Shown here one piece after another: positions 23,241-64,000 of a stretch of 64,000 nucleotides of DNA. This DNA comes from Symbiodinium natans (taxonomy: Eukaryota > Sar > Dinophyceae > Suessiales > Symbiodiniaceae). Position 1 is the stretch's first letter. Every line of letters starts with the position of its first letter. The notes beneath the pieces were generated by a model that did no database searches, was not told the DNA's origin, and saw only the letters and a list, made by a program, of their open reading frames with translations. Location of the stretch: positions 1,177,501 through 1,241,500 of the forward strand of contig CAJNDS010002501.1 of assembly GCA_905221605.1 (NCBI GenBank), given 5' to 3'. The translations under genes and the position numbers were made by a program.

Positions 23241-23537
23241 CTGAGGGGCCCTTAAAAATCAGGTGATTTGGGTAGGCTAGATATCAGAACTTAGTTTTCA
23301 GGACTTGCGTTGTCAGGAAGTTTTGCATTCGACTCGAGTCACGGAGGATTCGGATAGGCTAGGTAACACAACTGAGGTTTCACAGACTATATTCGAATAT
23401 TATTGTTCAGGTTTACATGACTAGCTGACAGTCCGATACAGGAACCTGAGAGTTAATTGAATCGCCGCAGACCTACAAATGGCCAAGGGCTTCAACAGCG
23501 AAGCCTAGCACGGCTGAAGACGCCGTGTAAAGAAGCC

Positions 23538-43199: not shown

Positions 43200-43460
43200 T
43201 GTCAGGGCAGCATGATGAATGTGGCTGAGCAGAGGCCAATCCAGCATTCACACTCGCGCATTCGTTTCGTCGTTGCTTCCTTTGTCAGCAGCCGGCGCCT
43301 GTTCAGCACAGCTGACGCCATGATGATAGGCAGGCAGCCCTTTCGTGTTACGCTGGATGCGCAGCCGTCGGGCAGGATTTTGGTGTGGGCAGACGCCCTG
43401 GACGACGAAGATGACCAAAGCATGCGTCTTGCAGCAAACAGTGCCGCAGTAAGCTCATCT
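43200..43460 (+). CDS. Exon-like block, acidic, function unknown
   Basis: A frame within 43,176-43,520 reads QPFRVTLDAQPSGRILVWAD, then an acidic stretch (ALDDEDDQSMRLAANSA). It may be an early exon of the element's gene. The match of an ACAGCATGCGTCTTG-type phrase (near 49,360) to the end of this block hints at a duplicated segment. Not recognised as any family. Confidence 0.25.
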
Positions 43461-43918
43461 GCCAGCTGCTCTGCAGCCGATGTACATACACATGGAAAGC
43501 TTTGGGGCGCAGACGTGTAGCGCAGCGTGTAGCGCAGTTGTGGTCAAGCATAGCTCAAAGGCTCCATGTACTGTTAAAGTCGATCCCTGGGGTCACTTTG
43601 CTCCAGACGGTGCGTTGGACTTTTTGGGCGCGCGGGGTTTTGCCTGGATTATTGTCTGGCGTTCCATAGCTTGCTAGTTGCAAGGATTCCTGACGTGATG
43701 GCGAACGCTGCTTGGGCAGATGAGTTTTTTGCCTGCACTGCAGTAGTGTAATGCAGGAGTACTGTTCTCGCAAGAGCAGGAGGGATTTCCCCAAACAGCG
43801 CGCCAAGAGGATTAATGTTGCTGGCGTCGTGAATGGGACGTTGGCGCTCGCTGTGCTGTTTTTTTGTTATCTGTTTTTGGCTTGCGAAGGCAACTAATAC
43901 TTGAAGTGGTTTGGCAGG

Positions 43919-44033
43919 TCTACGCTAACGTATTTCGAAGCAGCGAACAACAGGCTGGCCATCAGTCCTCCCGATTATTCTGACGATGAGCCGCCGTATC
44001 TTGGGTGCTTTGGTCGCTGGGTTGGCGGGTAAG
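43919..44033 (+). CDS. Exon-like block, function unknown
   Basis: Preceded by a TTTGGCAG acceptor-like site and followed by GTAAGG. It encodes TYFEAANNRLAISPPDYSDD followed by EPPYLGCFGRWVGG. The clean splice-like borders and protein-like composition support an exon. No family recognised. Confidence 0.3.
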
Positions 44034-44107
44034 GAACAGGAAATGTAGATCGAACCTGGATAGAGCGGGCGCGCTTTCAAACAAGAATTTTGGGTTTTCT
44101 CATTGTC

Positions 44108-44520
44108 ATACTTGGAGTTCCTGGGAAGCTGCGCGAGGCAGGAAGCCTTCAACGACATCACGTCGTGTCTTTGTCGCGCAAGGATCGAGAAGCCATATAG
44201 CTTCGTCGCGCAGACAGTATGTGTTGCGTGCGCAGATGGCATGTTTCCCAGACATGAAATTAGGCGGCAACTTACCATGGCCATCCTGCGCTGCCACTAC
44301 CAGCTTGCAGCTCTCAGGCAAATTCAAAGTCATCGAATGTTAAGTTCATGGCAGTTCATGGTTCATGGCTCACGTGTCATCCCGTTGCAGGCTGTGCCAC
44401 ATGCAATGCAGTGACCCTCGTGCTTGCGCCTACCGCAAAACTGGCCGATTGCGTTGTCGCAGGTGGCGATAGTAAGCTGATTTTGATTGAAACCGAGGCC
44501 ATCACTGCCTTCGAAGTGGG
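44108..44520 (+). CDS. Two exon-like blocks with paired cysteines
   Basis: Block one (about 44,108-44,338) encodes a Cys-rich, helical segment (VCVACADGMFPRHEIRRQ, then LRCHYQLAALRQIQ). Block two (about 44,392-44,516) begins GCATCNAVTLVLAPTAKLAD after a TTGCAG acceptor and ends before GTGTGACG. Together they hold CxxC pairs that could bind a metal. Stops between them in this frame, and splice-like borders, fit two exons of one gene. Function unknown. Confidence 0.35.
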
Positions 44521-44569
44521 TGTGACGTGACCTACTGTGTTCCGGCTGAGCTTTCGATGTGTTGAGCGT

Positions 44570-45055
44570 TGCGTGCAGACGCTTTCTGTAAACTTCAGGG
44601 GCCAACATTGGCTTCGGAAAGAAGCAGCAGACAAGATGCAGCTGCGCGCCACGACACACCTTCGCAAGACCCGACTGGTGCACCCTGACCGGCCAACGTG
44701 TTCGCTCTTTTCTAAAATTTCCGCGCGCGTGGAATACCAAGTGTGTCTGCCTTCATCCCCCCGGCGCACGCGAAGCTCAGGTGACAGCCTTGTCAAAGCA
44801 ATTGTGCGCCGGCAGCTTCGCGCTGATGTGGACATTCTGCCTTTCGATCGCGAGGCAGTACGGTGGTCGCGGCTTTCGCGACGTCAGTGGTACACAGGCT
44901 TCCGCGGAGTGCCAAGGCAACCCATTTGCAATAGGAATGAAGGGACCGGCAAGAAGAAACGTGCACTGCTGCATCGTTTATCAAGCGTAAAGACAATAGG
45001 CCTGGCGGCCAGATGCATCCTTTTATTTACGTTCCAAGAAAAGATTCTGAAGTAG
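44570..45055 (+). CDS. Basic exon-like region, reading frame uncertain
   Basis: An open frame of 172 codons (from 44,537) is Arg/Lys-rich. A second overlapping frame (44,781-44,990) also has protein-like composition, and an AG|GTGACAG-type junction near 44,780 suggests an exon boundary inside. I cannot tell which frame is used downstream of 44,780 and I recognise no family. Confidence 0.25.
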   Translation, partial: CVQTLSVNFRGQHWLRKEAADKMQLRATTHLRKTRLVHPDRPTCSLFSKISARVEYQVCLPSSPRRTRSSGDSLVKAIVRRQLRADVDILPFDREAVRWSRLSRRQWYTGFRGVPRQPICNRNEGTGKKKRALLHRLSSVKTIGLAARCILLFTFQEKILK

Positions 45056-45720: not shown

Positions 45721-46049
45721 CGAAGGCAAGCAGTCTTATGAAGTAGTCCTTGCTATAACAAGGAAAGATTCCAGACTTCTCCTGTCCTGGATTTGCCAAA
45801 TGCGACATTGTTCCACGCGCCGTTCGTCCTGCAAAAGCATCATCTTCAACTCTTCGAGGCGACAGTGGACAACTTTTGCGCACGCAGCAGTTCTGAGTCT
45901 CCTGAGACGTCCAAAGTGTCTAGGTGCGTTGCCCGACAACGACAGCGATCAGAGCATCTCGGCAACACAGCGCCGTGGCCACAGCCGGGACCGAAGTTGC
46001 TTGCTGCTGTCAGACTTCAGACCTACTTGTTTTGCGCACGCGTGTGCCT

Positions 46050-46497
46050 ATCTGCCCGAAAGGTACAGTGCGATATGAAGAAGTGTGTCTGGTTGATGCT
46101 TTGCGTGGCCACGGCTTTAAAATTAACTACAAAGCCCATGGGCCCTTCTGGGCAATGAAAGACGGGTCGAAGATGTTGCAGCCTTTCAGGTAGCTTGTTC
46201 AGCTTCAGGCGTCCTGCGAGCTCATGTTGTGTATGTCTAGCGCCACAGCATTCTTCGTGCTGCCAAGGCGCTCAGTCACTGCTGTGCCCCGTGCTGATGT
46301 TCTAATTCCAGGCGATTACATTCTTTGCTTTGACGCGCACTTCGTTGCAGTCCGCAATCGAGAAGCAGATGGCCTTCAGATAAACCAGACCAACCGCAGC
46401 CATGCTTGGCTTGACATGGAGCAGAGCGACGAACATGCAGCGGCATTGACACGTTCGGCGACAACGGGCAAGATGCTTCTGAACTTGAACTTTGTGG
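46050..46497 (+). CDS. Josephin-like cysteine peptidase fragment (two exons)
   Basis: Exon one (about 46,050-46,190) reads GTVRYEEVCLVDALRGHGFK and continues to SKMLQPFR. Exon two (about 46,312-46,495) begins GDYILCFDAHFVAVRN and later has HAWLDMEQSD. The order G-x-Y...L-x-x-AL-x-x-x-G-F, then a hydrophobic strand ending His-(F/W)-x-A-x-R, then an Asp-containing strand resembles the second half of Josephin-type deubiquitinating peptidases, including their catalytic His. The catalytic Cys helix should lie upstream and I did not find it. The exact splice phase also does not close, so the exon ends are approximate. Confidence 0.3.
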
Positions 46498-46818
46498 ATG
46501 GCGTTTTCAAGATTCAGACTTTCCAGGAGCTGGGTTACGTGGACGAGAGCCGGGTTGCAGCAGATCACTGTGGTGGTTCTGGAATGCCGCCGCCGGGAAG
46601 CAATGAGCGTGCTGGTGCTGTTTTGTGTCCCACGGAAGTGCGTTCGCCGCAGGCCGTGGATGAAAAAGATGCTTCACGATGATCTCGTGAGATACAGAGG
46701 TGAAATTCCAGAGCCTTGTGATCTGGAGAAACCTACGTCTAGCTCATTGACGTCACCAGCACGGGCCCCAGCATGAGTGCAGCGCATGCTGTCGAGTATA
46801 TCCCACTGATGTGCACAC

Positions 46819-47049: not shown

Positions 47050-47323
47050 CACTTTCAACGCTGCTGCTGCTGCTTCATAAAGTACAGGAGTTTGAGAGCA
47101 GCGTTGCACGGACCTTGTCTTCAGGAAGTCCATGTTGCTTGACCAGGCAAAGATGAAAGACGAAGTGTTGATGAAGGCTTTGAGCGCGCAGGACTGTCGA
47201 CAGGCAATCGGCCGGGTCGATCACAGATAGCTTGCTACGCACGCAGCGGTGTTATGAGCTGCTTGGCACCTCAATGCACATCAGGAGGAATCTGGCATCA
47301 ATGGTTCTCTACAGACCATAGAA

Positions 47324-48770
47324 GTGGACGCGCAGGGAGATTTTGCTGATCGTCCTGAAAATCTTCCGGCCTGTGATTTCTGTCAGAGGCTTGCGCCGCA
47401 ATTCCCACTAATTACATCGAAGCGCCGCTGTTTGCAAGTCTATTCGAACCAAAAAATGTATTTTGTAAGGACAGCGTCTGGGCGCGCGCGGCGATGGGGC
47501 CGTCTCAGACAAGACGGCAGCCGAGAACACGCGCAAGCCTTGCAGCTCGCCGTAACCGTGTATTGTTACGTGCTTGCAACACATCAGCCCAAGCTTTCAT
47601 ATGTGCTATACACATTGAGGCCAGACAGCGAGGGCCGGTTCTGTCGATGGCAGCGAACCAAAGATGTTTTGGCCGGCTCTTTGCCAGCAGACGTTGTCTT
47701 GACGCTACCGAGTTATCACTTCTCCGTCCGGTACCTTCGCAGCATGGCTCTGTGTTCCAGAACATTGTTGCGGGCTGCGAGAGACAACAGAAACTGGTCT
47801 GACGCCATTATCGATGCCACAGGCTCTGAGTTTGGAAGCACTCAAGCTCTTCGTCAAGCCGAGCGACTATGGAGTCGCGCAAGGCATATCATCCTGACAA
47901 TCCCTCAACTAGCCGCTCATTTCCGTGTTCCGGAGAACGTGCTGATTCGTTGGGCAGGGTGGACAAACCAACAACCCAGACGCGCAGGGGACCGAGTCTA
48001 TTCTTGGGAGTCACAGATTCTTCTGGGCTCGGCTCAGTTTGTACTGATAGCTCCATTCTTCACACAGAGCTTGTACATCGGCATCCAATCACCAAATTCC
48101 AACAGGAGAGCATTCTGTTACCTTACTTGGCCTTTCACGAGTGATATGACAGTTCATTTTGGTCTGGACGGCGGCCCCTTCGTTCGACGAACGTCGCCAC
48201 TGCCAAAACTAAATGCCGGGTTACTCCACCACGTTTCTGTGCATTGGAACCCAAGATGGTTCTCCGTCAGCATGGATGGACAGCTGCTGTCCTTTGCTAC
48301 AGTGCTTGACGGAGTTCCTGATGCCCCAGCCGCGCAGGCGAAACTTTTTGTGTGGGCGGTCACTGTTCCATATCCCTTGCTGCGGAGTCCTATGGTCATA
48401 ACGCCTATGCTGACTTCCAGTGTTCACAATCCGATTGTCCGATGCTGCTTGTGCGGATACGAGGGGTTCTCCTGCAGTAATCGTTGGGGCGTCTGTACTC
48501 TCTGCCAGAACTGGGCATGCAGTGACCACGTCCGCCGAAATCCTCTGCGAAGATGCCCAACATGTGTGCTACTCCTGGAAGATTACTTGGCAGGAAAGAC
48601 TCTCGAGACCTCTGCTTCAGAGCGCCTGACAGAGCTGCTGACCAGAGATGACGACATTCATCTGCGCCATCCACAGCCTCACTTCCCACGCCAAGCAAGG
48701 TGGTTCTTGCTTGACGATGGCCACGCGGAAGTTCCTGCTACTGCTACGTGCTTTGGAGCATTAAGTAATT
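47324..48770 (+). CDS. F-box-like / beta-sandwich-like / zinc-cluster protein (second module copy)
   Basis: An open frame of 561 codons starts at 47,324; the real exon may begin upstream. Residues about 118-160 look like an F-box (LPADVVLTLPSYHFSVRYLR, then a Cys-rich helix and a Trp). About 227-350 is strand-rich with WES...LLGSAQF and FSVSMDGQLLSF, like a SPRY/lectin-type sandwich. About 373-413 is a zinc cluster: CxxC, CxxCxxWxC, H, CPTC. The same three segments, in the same order and with matching phrases, sit in the large gene at 51,172-52,103, so the two are paralogous. F-box proteins usually bring substrates to ubiquitin ligases; whether this one does is unknown. The frame's hydrophobic end (48,770-48,935) is probably a pyrimidine-rich intron, not a membrane segment. 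It is followed by an acidic exon (HDSDNESGFWGPP). Confidence 0.6.
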
Positions 48771-48935
48771 TTTTCTCTTTGGTTTTCTTGTGCTACTGTG
48801 TTCTGATTATTTTACTTCTGCCTTCGTCTCTAGGTCTATTCCTCTGTGTTGGTGCTGCGGCTACTCTTGCTTGTGCTGCTCTGGCTGGCCTGTTTGTCGT
48901 AGTTGTCTACTTGATTCTGCGCTTGATTTCAGGCA

Positions 48936-49003
48936 AGGCGCAGGAGGCGATCATGATTCAGACAACGAGTCTGGATTCTGGGGTCCACCCCTTGATCCGG
49001 CGG
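48936..49003 (+). CDS. Acidic exon related to the 5' exon of the large gene
   Basis: After a TTTCAG acceptor the frame reads HDSDNESGFWGPPLDPA and meets a GT donor. The large gene's 5' exon at 49,441 begins DSDNESLSWWP. The shared start shows that exons as well as the zinc module were duplicated between the two halves of the cluster. Confidence 0.4.
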
Positions 49004-49052
49004 TGTTAGGGTCGGCGACCCAGAGCGAGGATGGTACGCAACTTGGACCTAA

Positions 49053-49379: not shown

Positions 49380-49440
49380 TAGCTGTATTTGCAGCCTGCT
49401 CTTAGCAGAGTTGTAGATGTTCAAGCTTTGCCGCCTTAAG

Positions 49441-49642
49441 GGATTCAGACAATGAATCACTCTCCTGGTGGCCGCGCTGCGATGTGTATGTCCAAGAAGA
49501 CGTTGACAGCGATGGAGAATGGGTCTGTGACGACAACCTCTGCTGGCGTTGGGTTCCGAGCTCACAAGCCTCTCAAAGTTTGCAGCTTAGCATGCAGCGA
49601 GCGAACAAGCGCGTGTACGTGTTCGGAATTTCGACCCTTAAG
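49441..49642 (+). CDS. Large gene: acidic, Trp-rich 5' exon
   Basis: Begins DSDNESLSWWPRCDVY, continues with an acidic stretch and WVCDDNLCWRWVP, and ends STLK at a GC donor (49,643). It joins in phase 0 to RLQASKMEAIQRKARR at 49,716. The ATG at 49,452 lies in another frame and gives a less protein-like N-terminus, so I prefer this exon. Function unknown; similar acidic leaders occur just upstream at 48,936. Confidence 0.5.
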
Positions 49643-52600
49643 GCAACTTGTCGTCAACACGGTTGAGACCGATGTGCTGGGTGGTGCAGACGCTATTTCA
49701 AGCAGTGCACGGAAGCGCTTGCAAGCCTCCAAGATGGAGGCTATTCAGCGGAAGGCGCGGCGGTTGGCCGTGATGCCGGAGAAGGCCTTTCTGCCCGAGC
49801 TGCGTCGTCAAGGGCACATCCGGTTCCCAGCCTCTCCAGCAGACTATGAGGCTGCTACGATGCCTGATGTAGACGTGCTGCGGCTTTTGCACCCCCATGT
49901 GCGAGACCTTCGTATCAGGTTTGAGCCCGGAGAGCACAAGTATTTTGTGGACGGCAAGAGGATGAAATACTCGGTCACGGGCCTGATCCACCAATTCTGT
50001 GCGCCCTTCAACGCTGACGCGGTAATTGGTGCTATGATGAGGGGGCAGAATTGGCCGCGGCCAGGATATCTGCAGCCGGACATTCCTCTTTATGCTTTGG
50101 CTAGACTGCGCCTTCTAGTACCTGAGCTCCTTCCGCTCCTTGCGGACAGTCCCCGGCATGAGCCACGCATATGCGCTTTGCTTCGAGCGCTCCCACGCGG
50201 CGATAACGTGGAAGATGATGTTGCCCGCTTAGCATTATCGCCTGAGCAAATAAAGGCTAAATGGGCAGCTAATGCTCAAGAAGCGGCCGGTTACGGCACG
50301 TACATGCACCACTTATTCGAGGCATACCTCAATGGGCAGGATGTGCCAAGCTGCTCTCCAGAGTTCCACATGCTGCGTGAGTTCCTGGCGACTTTGCGCA
50401 CATCAGCCAAGGCTTGGCGCACAGAGTGGGTTATCTTTGGTGAGGGTGAAAACCTGGCAGGCTCCGTCGACTTCTGCGCCAGAAAGGATGACGGATCGCT
50501 GGTAGTAGTGGATTGGAAACGCAGCGCAGGCCTCCCCAACAAGTGCACTTCGAACAGTAGAATGCTGGCCCCGCTTCGTCATCTGCCTGACTGCACGGTG
50601 ATGCAGTACCAGCTGCAGCTGAATGCGTACAGATACTTGCTGGAGAAGTATTACAACATGAAAGTCTCCGAAATGTACATTGTCTGTTGTCACCCAGAGC
50701 ATGGCACCCGCCCTTGGGTATGCTCCGTGCCCAGGCTTGAGGAAGAGACAGAGCTCATGATGGCTCACTCGCGTGACGTTCAAGGTGGCGCAGTTGCACC
50801 TCGGACAGAAAGTAAACGCTGGGCAGTGCGTCAATCTCTCCTTCAGCGGCACGCAGATCTCCTGCTTCGGTTTCCATGCGTGGCGTCGCTATGCCCGATA
50901 CCGACCGACCATCGTCTGTCCAGCAAACGAAGCTGGGAGCGAGCCATGCGCAATGCTCGAGTCACACTTGCTCTACTCGAGCAAGAGTCCTACTACATAC
51001 TCTACATGTTTCTTCACACACAATACACGACGATTTCCTTGTCTCATCCAATGGTGAACTTCAACGCGGTCCAATGGGTGCCGGAGGCAGTTGCTGCGGT
51101 TCTGGCACACGAAAGCCAGACACCACGAAAAGCTTGCAAACACCAGCCTGAAGACTTGCAGGGTGGATCGCTGACTCTGTCAGATGAGCTGTTTCGCTGC
51201 ATTGTCATCAGCTCTGCCAGCACTGGTCAGCTGTACCAGCTTCAGACTTGCTGCCGTAGATTTCGAGAACTGGTTTTCCAGAGACAGTCGTGGAGAGATC
51301 TTTGCATACATCTGGACAATTTTGCCAGAGAGAGTGACGAAGATTTTGCTCGCGCGATCAGGCTCCTGCCTGTGTGGCAGGATGCCAAGCAAGTTCTTGT
51401 GTCGTATCGGCTTCTCGGTCGGATGCCTCTGTCAGCGCTGCCGTCAAATCTCAGGATGATGTGGTCTCTGCGTGCTGCGGAGCCTGTCACGATCTTCAAC
51501 TACACATGTTTCGCCTGGGAATCAGTGGAAAACCTGTTTGGCTCAGCCCACTTTGCTCTTAGATGCACGGACCCAGGCGCTACTGTCATCGTTGGTGTGA
51601 AGAAACGAGACGACGTGCAACCGTGGCCGATAGCAAGCCAGCCTCGATCGGTCTTCCTCCGGCTTCAAAAGCCATTCGACAGGGACATGCGTGCTAGCTT
51701 TGGCAGAAGCAACGACTTTTACTTGGATGTGCCAGGGGTCTGCGGCCCTTTTCCAGGACGGAATGCTGAACATGATTTTGCTGTACGGCGGGTGGGGCGG
51801 GAGCTGCAGATAACTATTGACGGTGTGCTGCTCCCAATCTTGCGGCTGCGCCCCGATGTTGTCGAGAGCCTTGGTGCTCACACGAAGGTCTTCGTCAGAT
51901 GCTTCGCCTCTTCAGCAGCAACACAGGCTAGCTTCTCCGTGCGGCCGTTTCCCTGCAGGCTGCAATCAAATTCATGCGTCAGTTGCTTCCGATGTCAGGC
52001 GCTGTCTACTGTTGACGCCAGCCACGTGAAACCTTGCGCTCATTGTTTTGAATGGTTCTGCGCGTTGCATCGGGATCAGGTTGGTGACCGAGAGATTTGC
52101 CACGCTTGTGCAGATGTCTGGGCAGATGCTGTCGGAGGTTCCTCAAACGCTGCAGCTCTCGTGGTCGATTCTCAGGTCTCGCAAGACAGCTTTAGCGCAC
52201 GGGCCGAGAAATTGGGGAGTTGAGCAAGATCTACAGGAACAGCTTGCAGCTCAGGATGAGATCTCCCGACAATTGAAGAGCGAATGTATCGAAGAAGCTG
52301 CTGCTGATGTTGATCTTGAGCACCAAGACGATGGTGCCTGGGCAGCCTTGAAGAGAAGGCGCTTGCTGCCTGGCGCTGCCACATCGGACGCTGATTTCCA
52401 CCGCTTGTTCACCAGTTTGGACAAGCACGTAGCTGATCTTGTGCGCGAGGCATCCGACGTGTCGGAAGACCCGAACAGCATTCCCCAGCTGGTGTCGCGG
52501 CACAGGATGCGTATTGCGCGGGTCTATCCAGACATGTCTGAGTACATGTTGAAGCTCATGACAGCCGCAGCGGCCGTGCTTAGTTTGCGCACAGTGGACG

Positions 52601-55600
52601 TCTTCCAGCGCGAGAACGCGATGATGCTGTGGATCATCGACGGAGAGTCGCACATGCGCTTTCACCACGGCGACTGCTACCTTTTGCACCAGAGCGGCGC
52701 CTTTCAACAGTACAAAGGTCTTCCTCTCGACTGCAGCCGCGTCCACTGTTTTCTTCTGCATCTAGAAGGCCGGACATGGGCTCCAGAACATGGACGTTGC
52801 AGTGCTGTGTGCTGCAGTGCTCGGAGGTTCAGGGGTACATATAACCCCCTCAATTAATAAGTCTGAAACCTTGCGCAAAAGTAAGTGGGGTTCGAGGCGA
52901 TTACCCTGAACCTCTAAGTCCTGTAGCGTGCTTTGTGACGCCATGACTGCCGACAATAGAGAGCCGAAGCCGAAGCCTTTAATCGTTCGACTTGGCAGGA
53001 TTGTTCCGACAGCTTCCACAGGGAACCCGCCGCACAGAGCAAGAAGTACTCCAAGCGGTGGCAACATTGCTAGCGAGCGCAGACAGCGAGCAGGACTTCT
53101 TAGATTCCTGCCGTTGCTCTGCCGCGAGCAATACAGGAGACCATTTACTCAAAAGCAGGAAGTCGCATGTCGCGCTGCCAGCAGACGATGGCGATGGTGC
53201 ACTTGAGGGGGAAGGAGAAGCGCACATCAACAACTGGAACATTCATTGCGCTCGCATGATTATTGCATTCAAGCGCAACATCATACGGGACCTGGCAGAT
53301 GAGAAACTCATCTCATACATGATCGAGTTTTGCGAGCAGCCAATGGTGCAAGAGCGCGGATGCTGCTACACTGACTACGCTGTCACATACCCGGAGTCAA
53401 GCCCTGCGCAGCAGGTGCTTCTGCTGCAAATGCGAAGGCAGTTACCTAATGACAGCTGCCTTGCGCTCGTTCTGTTCTGAGCATCTTGTGTTCGCGTTTG
53501 TATGTTTGTGTGTTGAGTGTGGGCGCTTTCGAGGTACGCCGGGAGGCTGCGAAGAACATATATGTCCACATACCCCACAGCATCCAGGTCAAGGCTCCGG
53601 ATCCTGTGATGCAGCGTCTGGTGAAGTTTTATCGGCAGACCTTCTGGAGCAATGTGGCGGCTTTCAAGTGCTGCCAAGCTGCTCAGGCATCCGGGTTGCA
53701 TGTCCGACGTCGTTGTTAATCCCTGCCAAAGTCTGAGCGCAGAATGAGCAGCTGAGGCGCTTGCGAAGAGAGGTCTCAATGTTGCGCGCCTCTTCATAGG
53801 TTTATCATCTGGCGGCGTCGGTCAGTCTCTGTATTCAGCTCATTTGGAGGAGCGCCGGGGCAAGTTACCAACAGCGAGGAATGCAGACATGAGCTGGTGT
53901 GCCCATGTTGAAAAGGAGATGTACGGCCACAATTTCGCGTACTTTGACCCGAACATTTGGTACCATGAGGACGAAATGCGAAAGCAGATTGAACAGCTTA
54001 GTGGTAAATTCATCCTGACAGGCTGGGCAGACATGCGTTGCAAGAAACAAGCTGCTTGCTAGGTGTTTCTGTGCGCTGCAATGTGTGTGTGTGCTATAGA
54101 GGTCAAGAAGCCCCCGGCACCAATCGACGTCTACGGGACGATTTGTTTAAGAAGTTCTTGTCCGGCGAAGGCAGCGCTATGATTGATGCGTCGAAAAAAT
54201 CACAAGCCTAGCAGCCAAACAAGTGTACTGTCTTGCAGCCTCCAGTTGCGCAGGCATCTCCGGCCGAAAGCCGTACGGACTTCGAACACGCATGATCCAG
54301 TGCATAGGCTGGAAACGGCTCGAAGCAAACCGTTTCTTTGTCTTTGCCAATGTCACGAAGCGGGAGTTCAACGCCATAATGCGGCGGGCCTTCGTCTTCA
54401 GGATCAGAGCACGTTTTGAGGACGAAAGAGCAATCGAAAGCACCTTTGCCTGCAAGTCAGCATACTGGAAGTTGAGTAACAATATGTTCGCCTGCCAGGA
54501 GGGTGGGCAGGCTGCTGTATATTTGAAAGTCCTGACAGAACAATGAGGTGCTTACGAAGATATCGACAAAGACGGGATCTTCGCCAAAGATCAAGATCTC
54601 AAGCTTTTCTTGACATCTCCCATGGCAACACGCGCTGCTTTGCAGCTTCAGCATGCGTTCGAAGCTCAACACAATCAACAGGACACGCGTGGCAGATGTA
54701 GATCTCTGTCGATGTAATGTTCAATACTGCTTGCGGCAGACTTGGCTTGTTGCAGGACTGTTCTCAGATGATCGAAGACTACGTTCAGTGGGGCGGAGAT
54801 CAGGGTCTGACTGAAAAAACAATGCGTCAGGCCTGCGGATTGCCTCAGCGTGACGTGAGAGACATGTCCAGCCGTGCGCAAGCAATAATCAACGTTGATG
54901 ATGATGATGAGAACGACGGCGCGGGCCAAGACCCGCAAAAAGAGTGGGACTTGCTACGCAAGTTTCTTGTGAGCCATCTGCTGGGCGTGGGCAGATCAGA
55001 CATCACGAGAAGCATGCTTGTGCGTGTCAAACTTCCTGCTGGGCCGAACTTGACAAAAGAGAATGTAGTCCAGGAGCTTGTGAATAACAAGATCCTGGCA
55101 GAAACGACTGGCCGAGGCAAGACTGCCGAAGTTTACAGGCCTCTGCTGGAATGCGCCAATCTTCAGTCGGTGCTCAAGCTCGAAAAGACGCATGTGCAAA
55201 TGTTTTTTCCCGAAACCCTTCAGATCCGAGACTTTGCAGAGTATGTGCAGGGCTGCCCCGTCCGCCGGGAGAACGCTTTGGTGCTGGGCAAGTTTTTTGG
55301 CGCGGCCAAGAGTCCACCACTGCGGGGCCGACCCTCAAAGACTGACGTCGACTGCTTCGACAAGAGCGACGCACGTCACGAGCGCGGGAGAAAGCTACTG
55401 GAGCAGGAAACTTTGTTCAGCGAAATCCTTGTAGAGGTGACTAAGGCATCAGGCAGCGCCCCTACCGCATCGAGTCAAGATGCTCAACCAGCCAAGCGTC
55501 GGCGAGCGAAATCAAAGGAGCTTCAGAAGGTGAAGGAAGAGTCGGTCGATGTGAAGCCATGCACTCAAGACATAAACGTGGCAAGTGTTCCGGAAACGGC

Positions 55601-58600
55601 GCACGTTCATCGAGCTTACGTGTACTCAGATGAGGTGCCATTTCGATCGCGCAGGACAGTGAGGGGGGCCGGCATGCAAAAGTTTTGCAGACGCGCTGTC
55701 TTGCGCTTGGCCTCGGGAACAGTGGATCTTGATGTGGAGAACTCGGTTTTCACGCTGATGTACCAACTTATCAAGAAGCTAGCTATCCGTCCACCTCCTC
55801 CAGACAACGTTCTCGAGACTCTCCGCCAGTGTGCCGAAGAACGAAGTCGTGTGTGTCAAGATATACTGAAGACCTCCAAGGCCAGGACCAGCCTGCATGC
55901 GTGTCCGTTGGCGCTGCCTTTTTTGTTTAGTTCAGCATGTACAGATGCGCTTGATGGAGTCATTCGCAAGAACTGAGGCGGATGGGAAGGACAAGCTCAT
56001 CAAAGTCTTCAATGGAGGAGGAATTCCTTCATCTGAAGGAGTCGCCAAAAGCTTCTTGGAGGATGTGTCCAAAGTCTCAATTTACTGCCGATGGCTTGCT
56101 GCATCTTGCTTTCCGGACGAGCACGCGAAATTTAAGCAAGAGGGTAAGAAGAAAAACGCAGATTCTTCTCTTCTCTCTTACTTTTACCACGCCGTGGAAG
56201 ATTCTGTGCTGTCAGCAATTGCCGACTATCTCCTGGCTCAGAACCCAAAGCATCTATCCCTGCATTATGACGGCGTCCGTGTTACTCGGCCCGAAGCCGG
56301 CACAACGGAAGAACTGTGTGACAAGTTGCAAGAGCAGGTGCAGCAGGCAACTGGATTTCGAGTAGTTCTGCGGGAGAAGCTTCATCGCACGGTGTTGGAG
56401 ATCATGTCTGAAGCAGGAAATTGTAAGGAGGCATCTGTGCTGGCACCAGACTCCATCTTGCGTGCAAGTGGCAACTGCATTCCAGCTGCAGTGAGTCTGT
56501 TGCTACAGCGTGTGTCAGACGTGGAGCGTGCTGTCGTTGCTGATGGCAACTGTTCCCGGGGCCAAGTCGTCGATCCTGGGGCACCAACAGGCCCGACGAC
56601 GCGGTCATACAGGGAATGCGAAAAGCTTTTGGCCATGAAGTTCCTCCCGTGCTTTCCTGAGCAAGATTCAGCCTCAACACAATGGCAGCCGGGGAATTTT
56701 GTGTTGCACATGGAGAACGGCGGTCAGCCCCACTGCGTGGGACTTCATGTTGCCAATGATCTGGCAGTCAAAGTACTGGACGCAAGCAACACTTTTCAGA
56801 TCGAAGCTTCAATCCTGGATCAAGCAATGCAGGACGGATGCGACAGTCACACTTGCGTTCTTTTCAGTATCGCACGCGCCGCAGAGCAGATCACACCCCA
56901 CGCTTGCTGGGAGCCTCAGGCACTGGAAGCTCTGTTGGACCTGGAAGCTGGTGCTTCCGAAGCCATCGAGGTTCTATCTGACGATGAATGTCCAGAGAGT
57001 GTCGCAAGCAGCGTGTCCGATACTGAGTGGGTTGATGGCGAGCTGTGCTTGGATGAAGATGCCCAGGTGCTCACGGACAGCAATCTTCTTGAGGGCATGA
57101 AGCAAGAGGTGGCCAAAGTGCTAGCCAATAAAGGCGAACAGTGCTTTGAGCAAACAAGGCAAGGACTCAGGTGTCCCTTCTGCCCCTGGCGATGCTTCAG
57201 AAGGTCACGATGCGTTGCGCAGCATGTTCATAGGCGCCACACAAGCAAGAAACAATACTGCTGTTCGGGCACTAAGCAGTTGAAACTAATTCTGGCGTTG
57301 CACGACACCGATGTCATAGCCGGGTTTCCGAAGCGGGACTACCTTCGAAAGAGCGCTGAGCTCCTGCGGCAGCTGCTTCTCTGCAACATCGATACAGTAG
57401 TGTACCACACAACTCGTGCGCGTTTTTTGTTTGTTGCGAGTCTGCAAGGCAAGTGACGCCAGCTCTCAGTCACAAGAACAACGCCATCGACAGACACCTA
57501 CGTCTTATCTTCTCTGCTACAGGACAGGCTGACAACGGTTTGCTAGGCACTCCAATAGTTTGACAGGTGCATTGCTGTTTGCCAAGGACCTTTCTATGCT
57601 CGAGCAGATGCGGTGTTCTCCTTGAAAGCCCGAAGAGCAGGTGATCTCCATTTCACGCACTGCTTTGCCGAGAAGCTTTTTCGCGAAATGTTGTTCAATT
57701 CGGGGAAGGCATGCGCTGCAAGTGATCGCGTGAGTTTGGCAGCGTTGTAGAACCTGAGATGTGAGAATCTTATATCTATTGAAAATCATACTCCTCCGGG
57801 CAGGTGCACACTGCATGGACTCGAATGGTGCTGGATGCTTCAGTGGCTGGGTCCAAGCTGACCAACCTCTTTCCCGTGCACAGCAGGTCCTGGTGGCCTA
57901 TGGTGGAAGACATTTTCAGCTCCAGAGTTTGCCAAAGGCTTGCGCAGCAACTCCTGCTTGAATGCGTGAAGCACAACGAGTTCACTTACCTTTCCGTCGA
58001 TGGTACTGTGAAGTGCACTATGCCGCTTCTCGGCCAGAAGAAGCCTGGTGGAAAGCAAAGGAAGTCTGAGCCACTCTTCATCAACGGGGCAGACGCGATT
58101 CACACTGTAGTGACTGTACGGGGACGCTCTGGAGCAGTCGTCGGCTTTTGGCCGTTACTTTCAGAGAAGGCGGAACACTTGCAGGAGGCATTTCTGTGCA
58201 ACTTGCCTCAGGCAGCTCTTGCCCAAGTCCAGTGCGTGGCCACAGACGCACCGTCTTCTCACATGTTCTCGCTCCTGCAGTCGATTATGCCCAACCTGCA
58301 ATGCTTGTGTCTGGACCCAGTTCATCTAGCCATCAAATATGAGTACGCAACAGGGCGCCGAAGAACGAAAGGTTCCGGAAGATTGCGCGCGTGCTTAGGC
58401 AAGTTCAACGCAACCGACGCAAGTTTTGCTGCGGGGCATTGGGGCCCTTTTTTTTCTGGCGCGAGCGCGACATCATTGTCCGCGCGAGAAGCATGTTTGC
58501 GTGAGCAGATTCGCTCAGGTGGCATGGCCACGAGAAAGGCTTCGTCTATCTTGCAGCAGGTCGAAGAAAAGGTGGTGTGGGCAAACCGAACCGAGTTTGT

Positions 58601-59258
58601 CGAGTCCCTGGCCGCAATCTCCAAGATGTTCCGCCACGAGGTTGAGCGCAAGGGAGAGAAAAAGGGAATGTTTGTGTATGATCATCTCGCTCATGCGGCC
58701 GAAGCGGACAGACTGGAATGGTTGCTGAACAATTTGCGGTTTCGGTCAACACAACCCGGCTCTGTGCTAAGCCTTTTGGCGTCAGGCACAACCTCGAACG
58801 AGGCCTTGCACGCAGAGATGCGCTCGTGGTTCCGGCAAATTCAGTCCATGCATCAGTCGTCTCTTCGTTTGAAGTGTTCCGCATTCCGGCTGCGCAAGCT
58901 GTTGGAGCACAACACTGCTCTTTATCGACCCACTGCCAGACAGATGACACCTGGTCATGTTTTGGCACGACGACTGGGGCAGAAATTGTGGAGCGCAAGA
59001 GCTTGGCAAAGGTTCGTTGAGGGCAGGCCTGAGCAGCTGCCACTCAAGCGGCTTCGGGACCAACATGCACGCAAGCTGGTCTTGCGCCAGGCTGCCGTAA
59101 TCAGACGGCTCACTGGCAAGCAGCGGCAGCCGCCGCCGCAAGCTGAGCAGGCCATTCGCCGACAAAAGAAGCGCACTGCTTTCACATTGTTGCGTGCAGC
59201 TGGAATCATGCGGCAAGGCGTCGCGAAGCGACGTGCGCCAGCACGGGAGCCGTCGTAA
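49441..59258 (+). CDS. Giant mobile-element polyprotein, fourteen exons joined by eye
   Basis: Exons as read: 49441-49642, 49716-52175, 52237-52768, 52999-53437, 53518-53686, 53757-54021, 54102-54170, 54254-54502, 54548-54681, 54756-55880, 55945-57452, 57567-57729, 57804-59258; with at least one more exon upstream because 49,441 starts in phase 2, the model is incomplete at the 5' end. All joins keep phase to the TAA at 59,256. Donors are GT (52,176; 54,503; 57,453; 57,730), GC (49,643; 52,769; 53,438; 53,687; 54,022; 54,171; 55,881) and GA (54,682), all with AG acceptors. The least certain joins are 53,437/53,518 and 54,502/54,548 (a 45-base intron), and the acceptor at 55,945 could be 55,936. 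Product order: acidic leader, PD-(D/E)XK nuclease, F-box-like, sandwich, zinc cluster, SF3-like helicase, family-A-like polymerase, Cys peptidase, C2H2 finger, DDE transposase. Cleavage by its own peptidase is an inference. Confidence 0.65.
49716..51160 (+). CDS. Large gene: RecB/Cas4-like PD-(D/E)XK nuclease domain
   Basis: The domain contains every landmark of the RecB-type nuclease fold. A helix GYGTYMHHLFEAYLNG carries the metal-coordinating His (50,307-50,312). The first catalytic Asp is in AGSVDF (50,469). VVDWKR carries the second Asp and the catalytic Lys (50,511 and 50,517). QLNAY supplies the Q-x-x-x-Y motif (Q 50,616, Y 50,628). Upstream, RFEPGEHKYFVDGKR and SVTGLIHQF resemble the N-terminal strand and helix of this family. 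Such nucleases trim or process DNA ends with two metal ions. In this element it could process replication or transposition intermediates. All key residues are present, so it is potentially active. The stretch 50,760-51,150 links to the F-box-like segment and is less conserved-looking. Confidence 0.75.
51172..52175 (+). CDS. Large gene: F-box-like, sandwich and zinc-cluster segment
   Basis: Starts with LSDELFRCIVISSASTGQLY and a helix with paired Cys and a Trp, an F-box-like pattern. Then comes a strand-rich region with WESVENLFGSAHF and LQITIDGVLLPI (51,517-51,950), and a zinc cluster (51,975-52,103) with CxxCxxC, CxHCFEWFC, H and CHAC. The same three segments form the separate 47,324-48,770 frame. 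F-box domains normally bind Skp1; here the match is by pattern only. A possible role is linking element proteins to the host ubiquitin system. The exon ends at a CAG|GT donor (52,176). Confidence 0.5.
52237..54681 (+). CDS. Large gene: SF3/D5-like helicase exons
   Basis: Eight exons. A helical N-terminal part (52,237-53,437) leads to a P-loop-like motif LFIGLSSGGVGQSL at 53,790-53,831. Next come FAYFDPNIW (Walker-B-like), the spliced motif TGQEAPGTNRR made across the GC-AG intron at 54,022-54,101, then SGRKPYGLRTRMIQCIGWKR and FNAIMRRAFVFRIR (sensor/arginine-finger-like). The order fits superfamily 3 helicases of the D5 type, which unwind DNA at element or viral replication forks. Oddity: the P-loop has Gln (53,823) where the canonical Lys stands, so ATP use may differ. 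The C-terminal exon (54,548-54,681) is DGIFAKDQDLKLFL. It joins through a GA-AG intron to the next module. Confidence 0.65.
54756..56400 (+). CDS. Large gene: helical linker and family-A (TV-Pol-like) polymerase core
   Basis: After a helical, Arg/Lys-rich linker with acidic DDDDEND and a winged-helix-like stretch (54,950-55,150), the frame shows three motifs in the order of family-A DNA polymerases. Motif A-like is DLDVENSVFTL (Asp 55,725 and 55,731, Glu 55,737). Motif B-like is GKDKLIKVFNGGGIP (55,984-56,028). Motif C-like is HLSLHYDGVRV (Asp 56,269). Transposon/virophage polymerases of the TV-Pol group have comparable motifs and are fused to SF3 helicases, though I recall the polymerase lying before the helicase there; here it lies after. 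An intron (GC-AG, 55,881 to about 55,944) separates motif A from B. Likely role: copying the element's DNA. Assigned from motifs only. Confidence 0.5.
56401..57160 (+). CDS. Large gene: papain-fold-like cysteine peptidase segment
   Basis: Contains a Cys in an ASGNCIPAAVSLLLQ helix (56,476), a His in GQPHCVGLHV (56,731, with a second His at 56,746) and an Asp in VKVLDASN (56,779). Cys-helix, then His-strand, then Asp is the arrangement of papain-fold peptidases, including C39-, OTU- and Josephin-like groups. I cannot decide between them. Possible jobs are self-cleavage of the polyprotein or removal of ubiquitin-like tags. An acidic stretch (56,955-57,070) follows. Confidence 0.45.
57161..57452 (+). 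CDS. Large gene: C2H2 zinc finger and linker to transposase
   Basis: CPFCPWRC (Cys at 57,172 and 57,181) with a helix QHVHRRH (His 57,223-57,240) makes one C2H2-type finger, followed by YCCSGTKQLKLILALHD. DNA-binding fingers next to the catalytic domain are usual in transposases. Here it probably recognises the element's ends. The exon ends at an AA|GT donor (57,453), joining in phase 2 to 57,567. Confidence 0.6.
57567..59258 (+). CDS. Large gene: DDE-type transposase domain
   Basis: Two exons, 57,567-57,729 and 57,804-59,258, joined through a GT-AG intron with a GTGAGT donor. The first gives DAVFSLKARRAGDLHFTHCF. The second holds an RNase H-fold triad pattern: Asp in YLSVDGTVK (57,999), Asp in CVATDAPSS (58,245), a further Asp in CLDPVHLAIKYEYA (58,314), and Glu in GTTSNEALHAEMRSW (58,800). 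A basic, Arg/Lys-rich tail (59,040-59,255) closes the protein. DDE enzymes cut and join transposon ends with two metal ions. All acidic residues are intact. I do not place it in a named superfamily with confidence; a KDZ- or MULE-like group is possible. Confidence 0.65.
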
Positions 59259-59859: not shown

Positions 59860-60785
59860 AGGAAGGAGGAGTTTGTTCCACGTATATGAAGGGGTCCGGA
59901 GCTCAGACCTGCCCAGGAGGAGTTTGTTCCACCTATATGAAGGGGTCCGGAGCTCAGACCTGCCCAGGAGGAGTTTGTTTATTTTTCTGAAGAGATCCGG
60001 CCCAGGAGGAGCTTGTTCCACGTAAATGAAGGGATTCGGAGCTCAGACCTGCCCAGGAGGAGTTTGTTCCACCTCTCTGAAGGGGTAGGAGTTTGTTCCA
60101 CGTAAATGAAGGGATCCGGAGTTCAGACCTGCCCAGGAGGAGTTTGTTCCACCTATATGAAGGGGTCCGGAGCTCAGACCTGCCCAGGACGAGTTTGTTC
60201 CACCTATATATGAAGGGTCCGGAGCTCAGACCTGGTTAAGAGGAGTTTGTTTATTTCTCTGAAGAAGGGATCCGGCCCAGGAGGAGTTTGTTCCACGTAA
60301 ATGAAGGGATTCGGAGCTCGCCTGCCTAGAAGGAGTTTGTTCCACCTCTCTCAAGGGGTCTGGCCCACAAGGAGTTTGTTCCACGTAAATGAAGGGATCC
60401 GGAGCTTAGACCTGCTCAGGAGGAGTTTGTTCCACCTATATGAAGGGGTCCGCAGCTCAGACCTGGCCAGGAGGAGTTTGTTCCACCTATATGAAGGCGT
60501 CCGGAGCTCAGACCTGCTCAAAAGGAGTTTGTTCCACCTCTCTGAAGGGGTCCGGCCCAAAGGAGGAGTTTGTTCCATGCAAATGAAGGGAGCCGTTGAG
60601 GAGGAGTTTGTTCCACCTATATGAAGGGGTCCGGAGCTCAGACTTGCCCAGGACACCTATATGAAGGGGCCCGGAGCTCAGACCTGCCCAGGAGAAGTTT
60701 GTTCCACCTACATGAAGGGTTCAGGAGCTCAGACCTGCCCAGGAAGAGTTTGTTCCACCTATATGAAAGGGTCCGGAGCTCATAC
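59860..60785. repeat. 51-bp minisatellite, about 20 units
   Basis: Units contain GGAGGAGTTTGTTCCACCTA, ATGAAGGGGTCCGGAGCTC and GACCTGCCCA. Variants include a GTTTGTTTATTTTTCTGAAG type (59,969 and 60,241), a CACGTAAATGAAGGGAT type, and units lacking the GAGCTCAGACCTG part. Because 51 is a multiple of three, repeat frames stay open on both strands, encoding an RRSLFHLYEGVRSSDLP-type 17-residue repeat on the plus strand. I do not take them as genes. Confidence 0.95.
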
Positions 60786-61860
60786 CTGCGCTGGGAAGGA
60801 TCACACCCCTAGTTGGGGAAGCTGGGTCAGCAAATTAGGTTTTCGGTGAGTCGAACACAGGATGATGCAGTGAGTGTGAGATACAACTGGCTTAGGCTCC
60901 CTCGTTGAGGAAGCCGAATCAGTGAAGCCAAGCAGTGCTTTTTTGTGGGTATCTCGGGCTATCTGTTGCGCGAGGTTGGCCGTGTGAGAATCACACTTCG
61001 TCCTTTCGGGGTGCTGCGCACGATGGCATGTGAGAATCACACGTCGTTCTTTCGGGGCGCTGCGCACGACGGCACTTCTGCAGTGTGGAGCACAGGGTTT
61101 TCTCCCAAAAGTGGTTTTCCCTGTGCCCCCATTCACGAAGTCTCAAGGCTTCTAGTGGTTTTGAGCACGGACGTCGACCTTCTAGCAAGGCGTCTTTTAG
61201 AGCTGAGCCAAGATTGATGATTTTGAAGCTTCGGCTTCTAAGGGTTCTTAGAGCCTCTAAGCCCAGGAATTGTTGAATATTGATTTATATGGGAACGTTA
61301 GCATTTATTGGTCAACTTTGCTTGGCCTGGGCGTTGCCTCAGTTTCTATTCAAATACAAGAAGCAGGATATGATTTCAATATGATTTGGGCTCTGGTTTG
61401 CCAAGACTTTCTATTGTTTATGTGGGTATTTGTGACAAAGATGTGATACAAATATGTCGAACATATGAAAAAGATAGCCAATATTATGATTCTATTAACG
61501 AAAGATGCACTTTTACAATTCATGCTCATGCCTTGGGCAATACTTGTCGGCAAGATTTTGCAGATTTTTATGTATTTTCATCATTTGTTTTATTTTGATT
61601 GTTTCTCATATTTCCTATATTTTTGAGAATAACTACATCTGAATTTCATAATTTTGTCATATGTTTTCATAATCGATTCAGGCCATCTCGACGAGATTAT
61701 ATTCCAATCGTCGGAAAGCTGCGGTCCTGCCTCCGAGGGCACCCCTGCCATCCCCTTGCTTGCCCATGATGCACGGCCCGTCCGGCCTTGTTCTCGCACT
61801 TGACCTCCGCTTGGGCTTGTCAAACCCCTGATGGCATGGCGTCCGCTTGGGTCCGTCAAG
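60786..61860. other. Region without recognisable genes, with a short 46-bp duplication
   Basis: Near 60,983-61,075 a sequence of about 46 bases occurs twice in tandem, each copy with TGTGAGAATCACAC, an imperfect palindrome, and TTTCGGGG(T/C)GCTGCGCACGA. The rest has no recognised feature; 61,270-61,680 is AT-rich. Confidence 0.55.
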
Positions 61861-62186: not shown

Positions 62187-64000
62187 ACCCTAACCCCTAA
62201 GCCCGAAGGCACACACTGGAGCAGTTCATGACACGGCCAGAACCCCTTCAAACCTAGGTATGCGTGCGCTGCATTATACGTATTCTACCGTGCCACGGGG
62301 GGGGGGGGGGGGGGGGGGGGATGCTCCAAAGGGCTGGGGTCGTCGGGCGGGTTGATTGGAGGCTTCCGGACCTACTTGGGCGGGGTTCGGATCTACAGTA
62401 TTTAGTGCAAAACTCTGCAGACAACCCGTATACCAAGGATCAAAACCAAATGGGTGTGGGATGCAAGCCGGCTGCATCCCGCTACAGATCAACATGATTC
62501 TTGGCAGTTGATGCCACGGCTTGGCATCATCTTGGTTTAATTAAAGGTTGGGGTTCAACAAGGTTTTTTGCGCGTGGCTTAATGGAGTTGTAAGACTCTT
62601 TCTAAGTGCGTGCGCAGAAGCGATGCAAGTTTCCCACAGGCACTGTTTTGTCACACTTTTCCCTGCATGTGTTTCGGGATCTGGAGTAGACGTGCTCCAA
62701 ATGCTCGACCTGTTGTGGCACGGCTTTGGCTTGGCTTTGAGTCTCCAAGCCAAGTCTGAGGTTCACCATGAACCAAATCGAGAAATCGGATCACTGAACC
62801 ATTTTCGCATGGGCGGCATCCGTTGAAACGTGAACATGCTAAGCTCTGCCGTTCTTTTAAGGGGTTCGCGAAAACTACGAAAAGAAGTCATGGAATCCCA
62901 GGCTTCAACCTCCAAATTCGCTACGTATGGAGTAGTGCACGGCGCAGTCCCTAAAGGCGTTGGGGGCACTTCAGGCTCCAAGGGGCGCGAGGAAACCTTT
63001 ACCTTTCCCAGTGCATGTAGACAAGTCTGCCACTCTGGCGTTTGAATTCTGTTAAGGCAAGGGTCTGATTGAACCTCTTTGTGGACTCTGTGAAGAAGTG
63101 TGCGCAACGAGAAACTGTTGAAGGAAGAGAGGTGGTTTTACGCTGCAAAAGCTGGCGACATCTCTTTCGCCTAATGGCTCCTAAGCTTCTTCTCAAGCCC
63201 AACACTTGCTGCTTCCACTGCTGCGAAATTCATGCTTCCGATGATGCTTCCGGACGGAATCAGGTTGTTTTCTACACTACACCACTGCCGACAAACCCAG
63301 GAAACCTCCTCTCAACAACTTAAACTGTCTTCACGGCTTCTTATACCCCAAGTAAAACCATCTCCACCGGCATCTGAAAGCACTTGAAGGAGGATCGATC
63401 CCCGTAGGAGCTGAAAGCCGTCTGACGATTTTGTTCCGAACCTTCAGAACCCTCCAAAGACGTTCGAGCTTCTTCAGCCTCATGCAGGTCGTTGAACCAG
63501 CTTAATAAGTTCTTGAGAATGCTTCCGGACCATTGTGACAAGGCACGAAAAAGGAGCTTGAATATCAAAGCCCTCATAGTGAAACAGATTCAAATCCATC
63601 AACTTCTCGAAAGGTTCTACAAGCAACGAAAGTCCCAGACCTTGCCATTTCGGGTGTATGCTTGCTAGTAAAGGCCCACCAGGGATCTTGTTGGATATTT
63701 GTGTTTTGCAGCGCATTCAAGCTGCAAGGCACTCTTACCTGCCCCTGTTGCAGGGTTTATGGTTCAATTCAGTCATACGTGGTGCCTCCAGTTGCCAAGG
63801 ACGAGCGGTACGACTCTCGTAAACCTTGTGAGGCCGATTGAAGGTTGTTATGCCCTATTTACAGCCTTACAGCCGTCTATTGGAAAAGCTTGCGAATCCG
63901 TACACTTTTGAAGCCTACGTACTAAACTATGCGAATGGAACCTTCTAAACACATTTGTTCAAGCCGCCTCAAGTTTTTGTTGGAACCTTCGGAACAGCCT
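62187..64000. other. Region without confident genes; poly-G run near 62,300
   Basis: A G run of about 24 bases lies at about 62,297-62,320. On the minus strand, 63,341-63,716 has two overlapping frames (one with LASIHPKWQGLGLSLLVEPF) that would form one piece with a frameshift. I cannot identify it, and it could be a decayed processed copy of a host gene. Confidence 0.4.

Follow-up and report, generated by a model that had tools for sequence, protein, structure and literature searches.

Known eukaryotic self-synthesizing transposons combine a family-B polymerase with capsid genes, as in Polintons, or carry whole virus genomes, as in Teratorn. Polintons also carry a cysteine protease. The gene considered here lies in a stretch of 64,000 nucleotides of the dinoflagellate Symbiodinium natans (assembly GCA_905221605.1, contig CAJNDS010002501.1, positions 1,177,501 to 1,241,500, forward strand), hereafter the window, in whose own numbering positions are given. 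With a probability of about 0.7, it is one copy of a large dinoflagellate DNA-transposon family with a giant polyprotein. As predicted from its sequence, the gene would encode, in this order, a peptidase-like domain, F-box/LamG/zinc modules, a phage-type exonuclease, a module X, a helicase, a polymerase of the TV-Pol type, a papain-like peptidase, a C2H2 zinc finger and an IS256/Mutator-like DDE transposase. Such an element would be a self-synthesizing transposon without a capsid; this kind of DNA transposon is known, and what is new is its basis in an IS256/Mutator-like transposase and a TV-Pol.

Polintons typically measure 15-25 kb and encode their own polymerase and a DDE integrase (PMC6431247). 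The present element resembles Polintons/Mavericks in its size, its own polymerase, its DDE enzyme and its cysteine protease, whereas their polymerase is a protein-primed family-B enzyme and the one found here belongs to family A; it also differs in its IS256-like transposase, its single polyprotein and the lack of a capsid in the copy checked, on contig C2117. In the frames scanned, no PolB profile was matched. With the TV-Pol (PMC2579912) of virophages, such as Zamilon and the Qinghai Lake virophage, and of mobile elements, the polymerase shares a family-A-like palm and two acidic motifs, and its neighbour here is helicase-like by motif, but it stands in a eukaryotic transposon polyprotein with a peptidase and a DDE transposase, the neighbouring P-loop bears a Gln, and no virus structural gene was seen. 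Among Mutator-like elements (MULEs) and the IS256 group, MuTAnT elements insert into TA microsatellites (PMC4486113), a preference that the present element shares together with the transposase fold, which is that of ISCth4; unlike them, it reaches 21.7 kb (in C2117), includes a replication module and a nuclease, and has imperfect inverted ends of about 40 bp. Teratorn (piggyBac and a herpesvirus) likewise unites a transposon with a viral replication set (PMC6431247), and the helicase-PolB fusion of the Oxyrrhis polinton-like virus, OmPLV, is another large replication fusion protein in a dinoflagellate (PMC12721341); both differ in that here the polymerase is of another family, there is a single polyprotein and no capsid was found.

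None of the literature matches listed describes the combination; the searches did not extend to Repbase, to Dfam or to subscription journals. The union would be one between a virophage-type polymerase of family A and an IS256/Mutator-like transposase, with no capsid as far as seen, and a review names unions of this type as one way in which new large elements may arise (PMC6431247). How virus replication genes and transposases join, and how a polyprotein is processed in a DNA transposon, could both be tested on this family. It also bears on what fills dinoflagellate genomes, whose annotations might list such elements under Maverick, MULE or unknown; in Breviolum, Maverick-annotated repeats stand out for 5-hydroxymethyluracil (PMC11071213).

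Fused modules in the window and in uninterrupted copies

The initial annotation had joined thirteen exons of the window, from the nuclease to the transposase, into one frame of about 2.9 thousand residues. This frame does read through 2,895 codons with one terminal stop over 49,440-59,258, but its join near 52.2 kb, which links the nuclease and helicase frames, is no intron: the homologous proteins P0062 and P0063 retain conserved residues that it would delete. Three further joins were shifted and one small intron was added to fit the homologues and the uninterrupted copies. The corrected model of 52,255-59,258 holds 1,948 codons, one terminal stop and 12 introns of 64-230 nt, whose donors are GC (8), GA (3) or GT (1) and whose acceptors are all AG before G, a uniformity that is partly our own choice since AG|G was preferred when joins were picked. 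The two joins predicted to recreate TGQEAPGT and GEGISGRKPYG agree with the uninterrupted copies.

The evidence for fusion comes from other loci of the same 759-Mb assembly (G000, in which the window belongs to contig C2189). On contig C391, positions 117175-126090 form a single frame of 2,972 residues with, in order, part of the N-terminal peptidase-like domain, two LamG-like modules, X, the nuclease, the N-terminal part of the helicase, the helicase core, the polymerase, the peptidase and the C2H2 finger; the transposase (126,173-127,665) follows directly in another frame. The corrected window model aligns with this uninterrupted frame in one block of 1,490 columns at 31.5% identity. On C2117, a frame of 1,731 residues runs from the nuclease to the C2H2 finger and is followed by the transposase, with the N-terminal modules in separate frames. 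Since the C391 frame is uninterrupted, the case for fusion does not depend on splicing.

Fusions were also observed in proteins. Single-exon searches returned 15, 46 and 12 proteins, among them the window's own (P0016) and a nearly identical one (P0001), and the relatives with names were Symbiodinium, Polarella and Skav entries, the last of which we take to be Fugacium. The nuclease is fused to the N-terminal part of the helicase in 8 of 12 nuclease homologues (P0062-P0066, P0068, P0070, P0073), the helicase end to polymerase and peptidase in P0013 and P0014, and the peptidase to the transposase in P0033 and P0042; P0062 (nuclease) and P0018 (transposase), whose contigs have the same length of 104,661, probably lie on one contig. 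The frame also extends further upstream, as the initial annotation anticipated: P0067 fuses a segment like the window's N-terminal domain to a nuclease, and C391 has part of it in frame. This domain, which by its pattern may be peptidase-like, also precedes the nuclease in the copies of C391 and C2117.

Separate neighbouring genes or nested elements, falsely joined via introns, would account for the failed join at 52.2 kb, for the separate N-terminal frames of C2117 and for the other frame of the C391 transposase. This explanation is largely refuted by the uninterrupted C391 frame, and the single-protein fusions listed above speak against it too; we give it hardly any credence.

With respect to the individual enzymes, the sequence profiles of Pfam, PHROGs, NCBIfam and PDB miss the helicase, polymerase, peptidase and transposase. 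The structural model of the polymerase matches family-A polymerases (best PDB family-A match at E 0.054) and, in a viral library, 11 proteins with E values from 3.1e-7 to 7.0e-4, four of them named: Zamilon virus, Qinghai Lake virophage, Pyramimonas orientalis virus and Catovirus; as the two libraries differ, the closeness to virophage proteins is indicative only. We name it a TV-Pol because the model matches both family-A polymerases and virophage replication proteins; it has a family-A-like core and seems closest to virophage and mobile-element polymerases. The virophage-like family-A polymerase and the DDE transposase proposed initially were both borne out by structure matches, the latter by ISCth4, with an IS256-type DDE fold; no curated profile matched the transposase in Pfam, nor in NCBIfam for P0046, which divergence may explain. 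The nuclease additionally matches Pfam PDDEXK_1 above the cut-off (E 2.6e-5), has invariant residues across 13 aligned sequences, and in C391 matches PHROG_298 at E 2.8e-16; a PD-(D/E)XK core and an exonuclease profile, the marks of phage recombination exonucleases, are thus both present. On C391 (121648-123432, minus strand; L039), an open frame of 595 residues lies antisense to the helicase part and is probably a by-product of codon use.

Mobile copies and recurrent module order

Eleven polymerase matches share the 1,731-residue frame of C2117. The copies on C331, C580, C2389, C1680, C2213 and C2333, compared in parts with C2117, show long blocks that are 97.2-99.9% identical. The 3' end falls at the identical base in C2117, C331, C580 and C2389, with different DNA beyond, and C2213 has the same 3' terminal sequence, again followed by different DNA; a 5' end is common to C2117 and C2213 only. 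The C2117 element thus delimited covers 3,788-25,447 (21.7 kb), and its 5' part consists largely of tandem arrays. Another 5' end near 10.4 kb was dismissed as an artefact of N gaps. The ends are imperfect inverted repeats of about 40 bp, made up of a TA run, GAG, five differing bases, AACCTTT, two differing bases and GGTCTATTTTG, and the copies lie in TA runs. C580 and C2389, each with a 100-N gap, are 100% identical over 9,764 bp upstream and hence not independent copies, and C331 and C1680 extend past the contig ends. The near-identical copies, their shared ends and their differing flanks support the transposon nature of the family. Upstream of the complete element in both C580 (L056) and C2389 (L058), a shortened copy of it stops a few kb away, within the 9.76 kb of identical DNA.

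The matches listed in the own-genome searches numbered 96 for the transposase, 93 for the polymerase/peptidase and 122 for the nuclease, and merged into 88, 89 and 109 places; only the best candidates were scored, and some missing partners stem from that, as with C2333 and C184, whose frames place them in the C2117 family. At 69 of the 88 transposase places, a polymerase is found upstream on the same strand at a distance of 208-707 bp. Of the 89 polymerase places, 68 have a nuclease upstream at less than 16 kb, with a median distance of 2,956 bp, and the full series of nuclease, polymerase and transposase occurs in order at 52 of the 88 transposase places. Pairs arranged otherwise were found on C1065 and C1110 (two) and on C1850 (one), at sites where two elements adjoin. 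No transposase was listed for 20 of 89 polymerase places. Internal stops occur in 9/96 transposase, 2/93 polymerase and 11/122 nuclease matches. Since the order recurs across the genome and in the proteins of other dinoflagellates, the joining of the modules is not due to chance. The initial annotation would have been contradicted by homologues in which the modules are never adjacent; instead, the same order was found in 52 of 88 places and in the single frame of 2,972 residues.

In the mechanism that we propose, the transposase would recognise the inverted ends and insert the element into TA microsatellites, the helicase and polymerase would copy it, and the exonuclease may ready ends or strands for replication or recombination. 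The polymerase and helicase could instead be passengers, unneeded for movement, of an ordinary cut-and-paste Mutator-like transposon that captured a virophage-type cassette. A transposase and insertion into TA runs alone may suffice, as in MuTAnT (PMC4486113), and the Lys of the helicase P-loop is replaced; however, the cassette order is kept between families in which more than half of the residues are different, and passengers should decay, whereas the nonsynonymous difference (pN) was below the synonymous one (pS) in 72 of 72 divergent polymerase pairs (medians 0.49 and 0.77). This comparison covers 13 of 30 loci and, with synonymous sites saturated, indicates constraint only coarsely; of the 17 loci left out, 12 had no usable frame, probably as minus-strand matches read unturned, and 5 lacked motif C. 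We consider passengers unlikely.

Less likely still is a Polinton-like virus or virophage that became endogenized without keeping its capsid genes, and whose mobility reflects decaying viral ancestry. Virophage replication proteins are indeed the best viral-library matches of the polymerase model, and a polinton-like virus is known in a dinoflagellate (PMC12721341). Against a virus stand the IS256-type transposase, the single polyprotein and the content of the C2117 element, in which no capsid-sized frame is left over except tandem-repeat frames (one element of one family); Pfam gave no relevant match on four C2117 frames, and a capsid profile search of every frame was not made. The absence of a capsid, part of the initial annotation, therefore holds in the one element checked, tandem-repeat frames aside. 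Furthermore, two single-exon queries and one alignment of the transposase confirmed no relative in IMG/VR.

Gly-Gly motifs and putative self-processing

The motif D-x-x-G-G-[S/A] occurs 38 times in 12 nuclease-exon homologues, against a shuffled mean of 0.39 (largest value 4 in 1,000), and the joined frame of the window has four such motifs (mean 0.07, largest 2). The C391 frame has six D-x-x-G-G-[SAK] motifs, at residues 113, 237, 558, 875, 1081 and 1449 (shuffled mean 0.09), which adjoin or separate the N-terminal peptidase, LamG 1, LamG 2, X and the nuclease; the site at 1449 lies within the widest range of the nuclease and at the end of its window-based range. Because the motif borders unrelated modules, shared descent of one module fails to explain it. 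Module X follows the nuclease in the window and in P0065 and precedes it in P0064, P0067, C391 and C2117, which suggests that modules move between Gly-Gly sites.

Deubiquitinases cleave after Gly-Gly, and the adenovirus protease cuts viral polyproteins after Gly-Gly as well. The protease of a large DNA virus, pS273R of African swine fever virus, cuts the virus's own polyproteins at Gly-Gly-X (PMC10308890). The likeness to these viral polyproteins lies in Gly-Gly-X as the site of an encoded protease (PMC10308890); here, in contrast, the fold is papain/Josephin-like, the motif is D-x-x-G-G-[S/A], the proteins are DNA-processing enzymes and cleavage is putative. We put at about even odds that the polyprotein would be self-processed by its encoded papain-like peptidase at these motifs. 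After translation, the peptidase or peptidases would cut the N-terminal half after Gly-Gly and free the nuclease and accessory modules, and the helicase, polymerase, peptidase, C2H2 finger and transposase may remain joined. A wider proposal is that the family forms a class of its own among the self-synthesizing DNA transposons of eukaryotes, common in dinoflagellates and mobile there in the recent past, whose polyprotein of more than 3,000 residues, with a virophage-type polymerase and helicase, a phage-type exonuclease and an IS256-like transposase, would be cut by a deubiquitinase-like peptidase of its own at D-x-x-G-G-[S/A] and whose accessory cassettes would be shuffled between the Gly-Gly sites; this is tentative, and we rate its chances slightly below even.

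Several results weigh against the reading of the gene as a copy of a transposon with a self-processed polyprotein. The 12 nuclease-exon homologues are kin, so that inherited motifs were counted repeatedly; neither the polymerase set (1, mean 0.23) nor the transposase set (2, mean 0.40) shows an enrichment of the motif, and the case for cleavage draws on motif statistics and border placement. Josephin-2, at rank 5 in the Foldseek search of the peptidase (above the USP and AvrRpt2 folds), had a probability of 0.99 but a weak E of 0.11. Of the SF3-like helicase of the initial annotation, a motif-like module adjoining the polymerase stands, but it matched no family profile in the profile searches, and in place of the P-loop GxxxxGK[S/T] all three aligned sequences (window, C391, C2117) have GG-x-GQS, with Gln for Lys, so that it may have weak or no ATPase activity. 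Its assignment is by motif, which suggests a helicase-like function; the structural polymerase model shows no helicase fold, the helicase core lying outside that model. Regarding mobility, the ends of the window copy were not found: the C2117-type terminal sequence is absent there, and inverted repeats around the gene gave no convincing ends. Three copies of a 67% family showed no 3' end within 4 kb. IS256/Mutator-like target duplications measure about 8-11 bp, and none is distinguishable here because the copies lie inside TA runs. Among the best candidates scored, no polymerase was listed for 19 of 88 transposase places, and neither a polymerase nor a transposase for 24 of 109 nuclease places. 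Finally, the window copy carries a frame disruption near 52.2 kb, as follows from the residues kept in homologues and from a second copy, on C43, which is open there in a single frame for 232 of 233 residues where the window is not; open copies exist despite this disruption. Activity, self-replication and cleavage are putative. As a whole, what the initial annotation observed is partly confirmed, and its interpretation as a self-replicating transposon is supported.

Coordinates and further observations

Table 1. Features of the polyprotein gene in the window
Feature	Position	Strand	Basis
N-terminal peptidase-like domain (C...HFVAV pattern), more than one exon	46044..46628	+	P0067 residues 51-265, E 2e-23
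First F-box-like/LamG-like/zinc module, 583-residue frame	47258..49006	+	Weak Laminin_G_2, E 0.052, below cut-off
PD-(D/E)XK nuclease, phage exonuclease type	49668..50792	+	PHROG_298 exonuclease, E 5.5e-25
D-x-x-G-G-A before nuclease, putative cleavage site	49671..49688	+	Motif scan
D-x-x-G-G-A after nuclease	50775..50792	+	Motif scan
Module X, function not assigned	50784..51179	+	Comparison with homologues and genomic copies
Second F-box-like/LamG-like/zinc module	51144..52142	+	F-box-like, E 0.0035, below cut-off
D-x-x-G-G-S before F-box/LamG/zinc module	51153..51170	+	Motif scan
D-x-x-G-G-S after zinc module, before helicase part	52125..52142	+	Motif scan
Interval with frame disruption (intron of the initial annotation)	52150..52254	+	Residues kept in homologues; C43 open
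Helicase part, SF3/AAA+-like by motif	52255..54681	+	Core against C391 and C2117: 42 and 49% identity
Helicase exons	52255-52768, 52999-53414, 53534-53686, 53757-53849, 53916-54021, 54102-54170, 54254-54439, 54548-54681	+	Corrected model
Helicase P-loop GG-x-GQS	exon 53757-53849	+	Motif
TV-Pol-type family-A polymerase	54756..56415	+	Motif A DLDVENS in exon 54756-55880
Polymerase KDKLIKVFNGG and motif C HYDG	exon 55978-57374	+	Motifs
Papain-like Cys peptidase (GNCIPAA ... PHCVGL ... D)	56430..56900	+	GNCI nearly invariant in alignment A1
C2H2 zinc finger and conserved QYCCSGTKQ	57165..57374	+	Conserved in A1; zf-C2H2_4 weak in P0046, E 0.016, below cut-off
DDE transposase, IS256/Mutator-like fold	57449..59258; exons 57449-57522, 57587-57708, 57804-59258	+	Structure

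Regarding the modules upstream of the helicase, P0062 matches window 49,734-52,199 at 72.5%, and the F-box/LamG/zinc module of P0062 and P0063 also aligns to the first such module of the window at 22-25%; in C391, the LamG-like module is present in two tandem copies. In P0072 (Skav, EukProt), ankyrin repeats are joined to the nuclease, with D-x-x-G-G-[S/A] motifs on both sides. Nine short nuclease frames of 358-454 residues (C429, C1034, C934, C1160, C642, C2492, C1570, C637, C729), 36-42% identical to the window nuclease, have no listed polymerase or transposase within 20 kb; they seem to be a truly separate group, either another gene or a smaller element.

The C43 copy and the window have common DNA from 35,658 as far as a G run at 62,313; since the sharing reaches so far, C43 probably represents the other haplotype, or else a segmental duplicate of the window copy, and delimits no element. 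About 1.36 kb of the window (43240-44595), inside or just before the gene, is missing from C43. Rfam at gathering thresholds gave no match in the window. A tandem array with a period near 168 bp, partly in inverted orientation and with blocks more than 90% identical, occupies 20299-23250, and a minisatellite (59864-60789) directly follows the gene, where the C2117 element has its arrays on the 5' side instead.

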